From NCBI GenBank assembly GCA_913045055.1, contig CAJWPI010000003.1, positions 1 through 64,000 on the forward strand: a DNA stretch of 64,000 bases, given 5' to 3'. The DNA comes from an uncultured Gammaproteobacteria bacterium. Lineage in GTDB: Bacteria > Pseudomonadota > Gammaproteobacteria > Magnimaribacterales > Magnimaribacteraceae. Under the pieces are notes generated by a model, which was not told where the DNA came from, did not search any database, and worked only from the letters and a program-made list of their open reading frames with translations. The translations under genes were made by a program, and so were the position numbers. Of this stretch, positions 2,666 to 5,584 are shown piece by piece (the first letter of the stretch is position 1; every line of letters starts with the position of its first letter).

Positions 2666-4003
2666 TTAAGAAGGAAGTTCTATCCAAAATCTTGAGCCAC
2701 CCTCCTTACCTTGTAAATTTTCTACACCCACACTCCCATACATTAACTTTGAAAGATTCTTGGCTATAGAAAGACCTAAACCAGTGCCACCTTCTTTTAG
2801 AGACCTGCCCTTATCAACTCTAAAAAACCTTTCAAATACCCTTGCGTGATATTTCTTTGGGATTCCTGGACCTTGATCCTGAACGTATATTTTAGTTCTT
2901 CCACTATTTTCTTTGGTAAATATCTTAATCGTCCCACCCTCAGGTGAATAAGCAATAGCATTTGAAAGAAAATTGCTTATAACTAATTCCAAAGCTGGGA
3001 TATCTGCAGAACAAGCAATGTTTAATGATTGGTCTAGTTCTAGTTTGATATTTTTGCTTAATAGAATATCGTCATAATTTAGAGCTACAGAAGAAACATT
3101 ATCCAGAATTTTTACTTTTTTGATATCTATCGGGAATTCACCTGCTTCTATTCGAGCTAAGTAAAGTAAGTCATCTACAATTCGTCTCATTCTATCTGCA
3201 TTCTTAACTATCGCAGAAGTAAAGTACTGAAGATCTTTTTTTTGGTTATCTTCTAAAGTAAGAATTGTTTCAGCAGTTGCACTTAATACACTAATAGGAG
3301 TCCTAAGTTCATGTGAAACATTACCAATGAAATCAGAGCGTACAGTCTCAAGCTGGATTAATCTTGAAATATCATTTATGACTAAGAGGGTATCAGCATT
3401 AGTCTCATTATGTGAGGCAGTAGCAAACAATACCTTTGTTTTAGGATCTCGCAGAGTGATTTCTTTAGATACAACTTTTCCTTGCAAGGCCTCAGATATC
3501 AGTTTTTTTAAATCTTTATTATTTACTTTATCTAAAAAATTTTCTCCAGGTGCTAAAGGAGCTGTATTCAATAATTCTGAAAATGCGGGATTGCATAGTT
3601 GTACTTTTCCTTGATCATCTATTGAAACAACACCTTGACCCATTTCTTCTAGGGCCCTCCCAAACTGATTTCTTTCAGAGGCAATAAAAGAAACTTCAGT
3701 TTTAAGTTCATTGGCTATCTCATTCATAGTATTTCGAATTCTCTTTAATCCAGCCCTCTTTGTGCCTTTAACTCCTGTAGCTTTAACAAGGTTTCTTGCA
3801 CTTCTTATGACCCCTAAGAATTCTTTTGAAAAGTAAGAGGAAGTAATATAGCTAAGAAAGAGCCCAATAGTTAGTCCTATTAACGAGAAAAAAAATAGAA
3901 ATATATAGTCCTCTACCCTACCTTCTATTAATAGGGCCAGCACTAAAACTATCAATGAGTTTGATAGGAAAGTGGACCAGAAAATTCTCCACCTGATATC
4001 CAT
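2666..4003 (-). CDS. phoR: PhoR-like sensor histidine kinase
   Basis: N-terminal TM segments, PAS-like domain, DFIGNVSHELRTPISVL H-box, GPGIP and GGTGLGLSIAK; adjacent to PhoB-like regulator. Confidence 0.9.
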   Translation of the reverse strand: MDIRWRIFWSTFLSNSLIVLVLALLIEGRVEDYIFLFFFSLIGLTIGLFLSYITSSYFSKEFLGVIRSARNLVKATGVKGTKRAGLKRIRNTMNEIANELKTEVSFIASERNQFGRALEEMGQGVVSIDDQGKVQLCNPAFSELLNTAPLAPGENFLDKVNNKDLKKLISEALQGKVVSKEITLRDPKTKVLFATASHNETNADTLLVINDISRLIQLETVRSDFIGNVSHELRTPISVLSATAETILTLEDNQKKDLQYFTSAIVKNADRMRRIVDDLLYLARIEAGEFPIDIKKVKILDNVSSVALNYDDILLSKNIKLELDQSLNIACSADIPALELVISNFLSNAIAYSPEGGTIKIFTKENSGRTKIYVQDQGPGIPKKYHARVFERFFRVDKGRSLKEGGTGLGLSIAKNLSKLMYGSVGVENLQGKEGGSRFWIELPS

Positions 4004-4012
4004 AAACTAAGA

Positions 4013-4702
4013 TTATATTATGTAATTAAAGCGGTAGCCTACTCCTCGCACAGTTTCTATCTTATTTCCTAAATCTCCAAGCTTGGCTCTTAACCTTTTG
4101 ATATGTGTATCAACAGTTCTAGTGGTAATTGAGTTGTTATAACCCCAAACTTTTTCTAATAACATTTCTCTAGTTTGCATGCGGCCGTTTCTCTCTGATA
4201 AATAGAGCAATAACTTAAACTCTATTAAAGTTAAATCTACTTCAATATTTCCAATATAAACCCGATGGGCGGAGATATCTATTTTTAAATCCCCTATCTC
4301 AATTTCATCAGTAATGGCTTCGCTTTTATTATTACGTTTTAAGATAGCTGAGATTCTTAGCACTAATTCTCGTACACTAAAAGGTTTCACTACGTAGTCA
4401 TCTGCACCAAGTTCAAAACCAACAACTTTATCAACTTCTTCTCCTTTTGCAGTTAGCATAAGAATACAGATATCTTGTCCAATATCTGAATTTCTAATTC
4501 TTTTGCATACTTCTAAACCAGAAATATCAGGGAGCATTAAGTCTAGAACAATTAGATCAGGTTTAGGTTCATTTAAGGCCTTTTTTAAGGCTTCTTCACC
4601 TCTTGTTACACCTTGAGTTTGGTAACCTTCAGATTGAAGATTAAACTCTAACGTCTTAAGGAGATCAGGCTCATCTTCAACTATTAGGATATTTGGTTTC
4701 AT
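4013..4702 (-). CDS. phoB: PhoB-like OmpR-family response regulator
   Basis: Receiver domain (VEDEPDLL, VLDLMLPDISG, LTAKGEE, DDYVVKPF) plus winged-helix (TRTVDTHIKRLRAKLG...VRGVGYRF). Confidence 0.92.
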   Translation of the reverse strand: MKPNILIVEDEPDLLKTLEFNLQSEGYQTQGVTRGEEALKKALNEPKPDLIVLDLMLPDISGLEVCKRIRNSDIGQDICILMLTAKGEEVDKVVGFELGADDYVVKPFSVRELVLRISAILKRNNKSEAITDEIEIGDLKIDISAHRVYIGNIEVDLTLIEFKLLLYLSERNGRMQTREMLLEKVWGYNNSITTRTVDTHIKRLRAKLGDLGNKIETVRGVGYRFNYII

Positions 4703-4760: not shown

Positions 4761-5177
4761 TTATTGTCTAGTTTTAAAATGTTTTTTTGCAACCCTTTCT
4801 CTCAGTTCAGAACTTGAAAAATCATGAGGTCTAGAGTTAAAGTAACATTTATCTAGTGTATCTGATCTGCCTGTGAAGGGTTTTTCTCTATACTCTTCTC
4901 CAAGTATCCTTATATCCCATTCTACGGAACCCAAGATATTCAATACATCCTCTTCCGTATCATAAACAATAATTTCATCTACATACTTACAAGCAGAAAC
5001 CTGTATCTGTCGTTCTACTATACTTTGGACGGGTGTATTCTTTTCTTCTCTATCTACGGATGGATCAGTCTGTATACAGACTATTAGATGATCACATTGT
5101 TTTTTAGCTTCTTGAAGCATCATAACGTGACCTGCATGAAATAAATCAAATGCTCCAAAAGTAATACCTTTTTTCAT
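4761..5177 (-). CDS. TagD-like cytidylyltransferase / glycerol-3-phosphate cytidylyltransferase family
   Basis: GAFDLFHAGHVMMLQEAK HxGH motif and RPHDFSSSELRERV C-terminal motif. Confidence 0.85.
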   Translation of the reverse strand: MKKGITFGAFDLFHAGHVMMLQEAKKQCDHLIVCIQTDPSVDREEKNTPVQSIVERQIQVSACKYVDEIIVYDTEEDVLNILGSVEWDIRILGEEYREKPFTGRSDTLDKCYFNSRPHDFSSSELRERVAKKHFKTRQ

Positions 5178-5251: not shown

Positions 5252-5280
5252 AAAAAAGGAGACTAAAGTCTCCTTTTTTT
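5252..5280 (-). terminator. Rho-independent-type hairpin (potentially bidirectional)
   Basis: AAAAAAGGAGACT-AA-AGTCTCCTTTTTT, 13-bp perfect inverted repeat with A and T tracts. Confidence 0.85.
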
Positions 5281-5337
5281 AATTCAAAGTTATAGTTAAT
5301 TTCTTACTTTAAGCAAATCAGAATTATTTATACTATA

Positions 5338-5442
5338 TTAATTTGTCTCCTGACCAACACAAACTTTCATATAGACCTTATCTATCCTTCCAGATTTCAT
5401 AACTTTGTTTATTTTTTGGCCTATTTTTCTTACTTTTTTCAT
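5338..5442 (-). CDS. Putative 34-aa basic microprotein (not in ORF track)
   Basis: Minus-strand ATG...TAA: MKKVRKIGQKINKVMKSGRIDKVYMKVCVGQETN; AAGGA just upstream of ATG; Pho-like array upstream, terminator about 58 nt downstream of stop. Confidence 0.5.
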   Translation of the reverse strand: MKKVRKIGQKINKVMKSGRIDKVYMKVCVGQETN

Positions 5443-5471
5443 ATTCCTTATGTTTTTAATTTCATAAATAA

Positions 5472-5532
5472 ATGACTTTTTTGTTACAAAATTAAGTCAT
5501 TAATATGACTAATATATGTCAATTATGTGACA
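5472..5532 (-). promoter_or_regulatory. Six tandem 11-bp-phased Pho-box-like half-sites
   Basis: Minus strand: TGTCACATAAT|TGACATATATT|AGTCATATTAA|TGACTTAATTT|TGTAACAAAAA|AGTCAT; first and last hexamers are exactly 5 x 11 bp apart. Confidence 0.65.
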
Positions 5533-5567
5533 AATTCAACAATAATAAAAGAAAACGAGGTCTTTAT

Positions 5568-5584
5568 GTGACAATTCTGTGTCA
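5568..5584 (-). promoter_or_regulatory. Additional Pho-box-like pair
   Basis: Minus strand TGACACAGAAT|TGTCAC, 11-bp spacing, 41 bp upstream of the six-unit array. Confidence 0.5.

Follow-up and report, generated by a model that had tools for sequence, protein, structure and literature searches.

A Phosphate-Array-Linked Microprotein Family beside phoR in SAR86 Bacteria and Carried by Marine Phages

What does a short open reading frame (ORF) behind an array of putative PhoB boxes encode, and how might it serve the phosphate response? The question is raised by a locus in an uncultured bacterium of the SAR86 cluster (order level; genome G000, 1.49 Mb). SAR86 bacteria are abundant in the nutrient-poor surface ocean. 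The whole stretch of DNA analyzed here, 64,000 nucleotides long, is referred to as the window. The initial annotation had proposed a self-contained, Pho-driven transcript acting as a microprotein mRNA, a small RNA (sRNA), or both. The features of the locus are as follows.

5569..5584, minus strand: upstream pair of Pho-like half-sites, TGACA-N6-TGTCA (TGACAcagaatTGTCA), 11 bp apart
5473..5532, minus strand: putative PhoB boxes, six TGTCA/TGACA-like half-sites in 11-bp register, scoring above shuffles
5338..5442, minus strand: ORF of the 34-aa MKSGR-family microprotein MKKVRKIGQKINKVMKSGRIDKVYMKVCVGQETN, stop codon included
5252..5279, minus strand: intrinsic-terminator-like hairpin with a 12-bp stem and a T run (from sequence and fold)
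4761..5177, minus strand: cytidylyltransferase-like gene (138 aa), the next gene downstream; a phoB neighbor conserved in family f1
4013..4702, minus strand: phoB-like response regulator, the presumed activator
2666..4003, minus strand: phoR-like sensor kinase (HisKA, HATPase_c, weak PAS), the presumed target

The window locus and its neighborhood

The array in the window was as initially described: from position 5532 on the minus strand, the half-sites TGTCA, TGACA, AGTCA, TGACT, TGTAA, and AGTCA follow one another in exact 11-bp register, four of the six being degenerate, and the further pair does stand upstream at 5584-5569. With a simple half-site score of 8 of 12, it is the top six-unit array on both strands of the 64 kb; the maxima in five dinucleotide shuffles of the window were only 4 to 5. 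The locus thus has a Pho-regulon type of promoter, defined by tandem 11-bp TGTCA-type putative PhoB boxes, and from this array we infer that the unit may respond to phosphate. The AAGGA motif and the 34-aa ORF were both found, with a short spacing of 2 bases between AAGGA and ATG. The terminator hairpin (AAAAAAGGAGAC-TTTA-GTCTCCTTTTTT, 5279-5252) was also present, with a stem of 12 bp in the fold instead of the 13 bp claimed; it was seen in the fold and was not reported by the pattern scan. The window ORF by itself is not separable from chance, and it is the relatives described below that make it more than a chance ORF.

Downstream of the ORF and on the same strand lie the cytidylyltransferase-like gene, phoB, and phoR, an order kept in many genomes of the window's family (f1). 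The window phoR is approximately 1.3 kb downstream of the peptide and not directly upstream. Near the corresponding place, four genomes (G005, G010, G020, and G028) have an array and a secreted protein of about 150 aa with no Pfam match, which in G010 occupies exactly the slot of the peptide. The window peptide was considered as a remnant of this 150-aa protein and the idea was rejected, because no convincing likeness was seen by eye and the peptide has a family of its own.

Two side observations concern other genes behind Pho-type arrays. A family of secreted proteins of approximately 130 to 150 aa (ACFRSDKP...LVGLMSDYLQF type) stands behind such arrays in many SAR86 genomes, with a match in 38 of 101 genomes; the single member tested had no Pfam match (examples are L048, 3275-3727, and L044, 1570-2025, as well as L064, L067, L070, and L083). 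Within the window, a weaker array-like stretch (795-854) lies immediately 5' of ppk2 (917-1756), and ppk2-ppx may also be under Pho control.

A microprotein family in SAR86

A plain protein search with the window peptide returned the window copy, chance matches, and nothing else. The first lead came from reading behind the arrays of relatives: G044 encodes MITTFWNKFHSFMKSGRLNKVIKLSGIK behind an array that comes immediately after phoR. When the shared core was written as a degenerate DNA pattern, 26 of 203 genomes of the order had a match (3 matches for the reversed control); most matches were ORFs of 28 to 29 aa behind arrays, and some were due to chance. A profile built with the window copy included detected the family in 25 of 203 order genomes at E values of ≤2e-8, MKAGR variants among them. 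Altogether, the core MKSGR(I/L)xKV was found at 24 SAR86 loci beyond the window, again mostly in ORFs of 28 to 29 aa, with the consensus MxKxIWNKFHxFMKSGRLxKV. Weaker forms also occur (in family f4, for example, MARLFKKLDKLMKAGSLERVIRKSF follows an array), and genomes of the window's own family mostly do not carry the peptide.

Among cellular genomes, the strict pattern was confined to SAR86 apart from matches that we set aside. L161, a contig assigned to Euryarchaeota, has a phoR and a peptide of the SAR86 type, and L189, assigned to Planctomycetaceae, shares 97% identity with a viral contig; both contigs appear to be misbinned. Alphaproteobacterial matches of the type QLHSLMKSGRF... stand in another context without arrays and were set aside as unrelated. 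A class-wide profile search gave only chance matches, for example to the end of an amidohydrolase-like ORF. Neither the window peptide nor one phoR-linked relative matched any Pfam family, DUF1127 included. The MKSGR family, as yet undescribed, is absent from Pfam, PHROGs, Rfam, and the literature searched.

The arrangement around the peptide is also conserved. A Pho-type array (P ≤ 0.01 each) precedes 21 of the 25 SAR86 loci, window included, and a three-unit array pattern with one mismatch was found in 20 of 61 order genomes (reversed control, 0); the 11-bp array is a real motif in this order. phoR lies upstream of the peptide at 20 of the 24 loci other than the window, with a secreted-protein gene standing between the two at L340. 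The four exceptions represent a second site in genus g8, away from phoR and behind array-like sites. The peptide of this g8 subtype (GRIxKVWNSM; L325, L326, L327, and L332) is followed by a strong terminator. At two of the 25 loci, L337 and L340, no in-frame start codon was found upstream.

Does the window copy belong to this family, defined by the core [F/I][H/N]xxMK[S/A]GR[L/I]xKV within a short ORF? The peptide carries INKVMKSGRIDKV, and it misses the FH and W positions of the family. With a profile built without the window copy, the window ORF scored 16.9 bits (E value of 2e-7 for one sequence), equivalent to about 5e-4 across the 2,377 window segments, of which the next best scored 8.9. 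Since scaling to the whole genome gives a value near 0.01, membership rests on sequence plus context, the context being an upstream array (P = 0.002) and a nearby phoR. On this combined basis, the window copy is a divergent family member. No further genome of its genus (g1) was present among the genomes searched.

Conservation of the peptide rather than of an RNA

Across the SAR86 members, the conserved Gly uses all four of its codons, the Arg uses four, and the Ser/Ala position uses six, with a pN/pS ratio of 0.36. This synonymous variation indicates that the peptide is what is conserved. The phage set described below was picked by an amino acid pattern, so that its invariant residues are partly so by construction; its pattern-free positions are spread over synonymous codons. 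The family shows protein-level selection: the amino acid sequence is conserved and synonymous change is free. Once its terminator is removed, the window transcript is no more stably folded than shuffled sequences (z = -0.78), and Rfam gave nothing at the gathering score for the window, only subthreshold matches that were mostly on the other strand. As no unusual structure exists beyond the terminator, the sRNA half of the initial annotation is left without support.

Homologs in marine phages

The pattern FHxxMKSGR[LI] matched at least 120 stretches of viral contigs, and at least 119 short peptide ORFs were found in marine viral contigs (95 distinct among the matches listed); a codon-permuted control gave 0 matches. 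The phage contigs that were examined gene by gene are mostly T4-like. One of them has about 68% DNA identity to Pelagibacter phage HTVC008M, the genome of which contains no such ORF by motif scan. Searches of cultured phages by tblastn with three phage-type peptides yielded nothing, or an unrelated Pseudomonas phage at an E value of 4, and PHROGs gave only weak matches (E values of 0.02 to 0.07) to families of unknown function. No viral match was obtained for the window-type core MKSGRI[DN]KVY. The best tRNA match, 91% over part of the gene, was uninformative as to phage host. A DNA palindrome, TTTCAT-N6-ATGAAA, was rejected as an element: it results from the codons of FHxxMK, and the window does not have it.

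Among the matches listed, a Pho-like array (P ≤ 0.01) precedes the peptide at 12 of 90 unique phage loci, and the T4-late-like sequence TATAAATA stands upstream at 26 of 90 (1.6 expected), in 11 of the 26 at 13 nt from the start codon. Some phage forms possess an N-terminal hydrophobic segment. The phage contexts fall into 56 neighbor clusters among the matches listed, and include genes that we take to be RegA-like, Hsp20-like, curli-type, and structural genes. Curli genes have been reported for this phage group (PMC7029224).

Relatives of the window cytidylyltransferase-like gene (52 to 59% identity) were also seen in 13 listed viral stretches (L207, L208, L220, L225, L227, L228, L233, L248, L265, L283, L286, L292, and L307). 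They may be ordinary phage cargo, rfaE having been reported for this phage group.

In three phage contigs (L206, L235, and L256), a Pho-like array is followed by a conserved 5' untranslated region (UTR), then by a secreted protein of 94 aa, and finally by the peptide. A homologous stretch lies between phoR and the peptide core on the SAR86 chromosome G154, where the secreted protein is 64% identical to that of L206 at the protein level and the UTR is closely similar. A scan with the UTR only, independent of the peptide, detected nine phage stretches, and in nine of nine a peptide of the MKSGR type follows, with a diverged core in two (L351 and L354). This unit, shared at the DNA level, argues for an exchange of genes between these phages and SAR86.

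The UTR itself (AGTAGGGAAACCGAAGTNCAGTTGNCGGATAGTT...; about 50 nt) lies between the array and the start codon in phages and in a single SAR86 chromosome (L206, L256, L349-L355, L218, and L340; alignment A5). It had no match in Rfam and looks like an undescribed RNA element; it is not found in the window. The secreted protein belongs to a second family, of about 95 to 100 aa, that occurs behind Pho-type arrays in SAR86 and 11 viral contigs and, in some loci, directly 5' of the MKSGR peptide (L078, L079, L082, L340, L206, L235, L256, and L359-L369).

Proposed role and alternative explanations

Since many SAR86 genomes have the family beside phoR and phages carry it as well, it may regulate the phosphate starvation response. 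The explanation that we favor, though tentatively, is that PhoB induces a microprotein whose role is to tune the PhoR/PhoB circuit and which has been exchanged with phages. The locus would be a one-gene unit for a phosphate starvation microprotein: phospho-PhoB would bind the 11-bp array and start a short mRNA ending at the hairpin, and translation would give a basic peptide of about 25 to 35 residues, with two short helices around the conserved MKSGR turn. Its most likely site of action would be the PhoR sensor complex, on the cytoplasmic side of the inner membrane, where the peptide would modulate by feedback the very circuit that induces it; marine phages probably apply it, under Pho-like arrays or late promoters, to the same host machinery. 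By analogy with MgrB and the DUF1127 proteins, we take damping as the default sign of the effect, over locking the circuit on. A structure model (mean pLDDT, 79; pTM, 0.33) places helices at residues 2-16 and 19-29 around the MKSGR turn. The net charge is +6 to +8, with a basic, amphipathic N-terminal stretch; this helix and the hydrophobic segment of some phage forms fit membrane proximity.

Several observations count against this explanation. The g8 subtype sits apart from phoR, most f1 genomes do not have the peptide, and two of the 25 SAR86 loci have no in-frame upstream start codon. The array is absent from many phage copies, and a late promoter is odd timing for a change in sensing. Moreover, adjacency to phoR may reflect simple co-regulation within the Pho system. 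A stronger version, in which the family directly resets the PhoR/PhoB switch as a feedback built into SAR86, and marine phages took over the Pho-controlled unit so as to direct the phosphate response of the host during infection, appears somewhat unlikely to us.

The charge, the amphipathic stretch, the hydrophobic-segment fusions, and the late-type phage promoters would also suit a Pho-regulated cationic amphipathic helix that attaches to the inner membrane or to a membrane transporter and, in starved or infected cells, alters uptake, the envelope, or lysis with PhoR uninvolved. This reading reduces the phoR linkage to co-regulation, and it sits poorly with the strict conservation of the short K-S/A-G-R motif, which points to a specific partner; we regard it as rather unlikely. 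The peptide, being short and basic with one invariant motif and found in T4-like phages beside expression genes such as the RegA-like gene, might instead be a soluble inhibitor or adaptor of RNA polymerase, the ribosome, or a nuclease that slows or redirects expression in starvation and late infection. In SAR86, however, the peptide is linked with phoR and Pho arrays and not with genes of transcription or translation, and the phage contexts are many (the 56 clusters among the matches listed), which makes this an unlikely reading.

Another alternative is specific to the window: the family would be real, and the window copy would be decaying in a slot that relatives give to another Pho-driven gene. 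The missing W and FH positions, the scarcity of the peptide in other f1 genomes, the array and 150-aa secreted protein in the slot of G010, and the lack of a second g1 genome among those searched all agree with decay, but the frame, the array, the terminator, and the MKSGRI-x-KV core are intact in the window, and we consider decay improbable. A regulatory or dual-function RNA, to which the short self-contained transcript, its strong terminator, and the conserved 5' UTR of one phage/SAR86 subgroup (window excepted) might point, is very improbable given the ordinary folding, the subthreshold Rfam matches, and the conservation of amino acids.

Comparison with known systems

The microprotein behind a Pho array that was initially proposed is supported by SAR86 homologs behind Pho-type arrays beside phoR and by homologs in marine phages. 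The larger result goes beyond that unit: a phoR-linked SAR86 family is also carried by marine phages. The family is a concrete, testable candidate for the tuning of phosphate signaling in uncultured bacteria and for phage access to that signaling. A search that joins a DNA motif with an operator array and gene order can recover genes of 25 to 35 aa, which annotation usually leaves out.

On the basis of its gene linkage to phoR, we propose the MKSGR family as a candidate member of the class of small proteins that modulate sensor kinases. DUF1127 small proteins (Agrobacterium SDPs and E. coli YjiS) bind PhoR (PMC12501420). Both groups are proteins of <50 aa tied to phosphate control; PhoR binding is reported for DUF1127, whereas for the MKSGR family, which has no DUF1127 match, is 25 to 35 aa long, mostly phoR linked, and shared with phages, PhoR is a putative target. 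MgrB, a membrane protein of 47 aa, is a feedback inhibitor of PhoQ (PMC8404706). The likeness lies in the proposed logic only, a small protein of a two-component regulon acting back on the sensor kinase; MgrB belongs to another system, the kinase interaction of the MKSGR family is putative, and we claim no sequence kinship. Cyanophage genes have been described under host PhoBR control, among them enzymes and a high-light protein (PMC10976474). Marine T4-like phages appear in both cases to place genes under the host Pho system, with enzymes and a high-light protein there and, here, a microprotein that the hosts also carry beside phoR.
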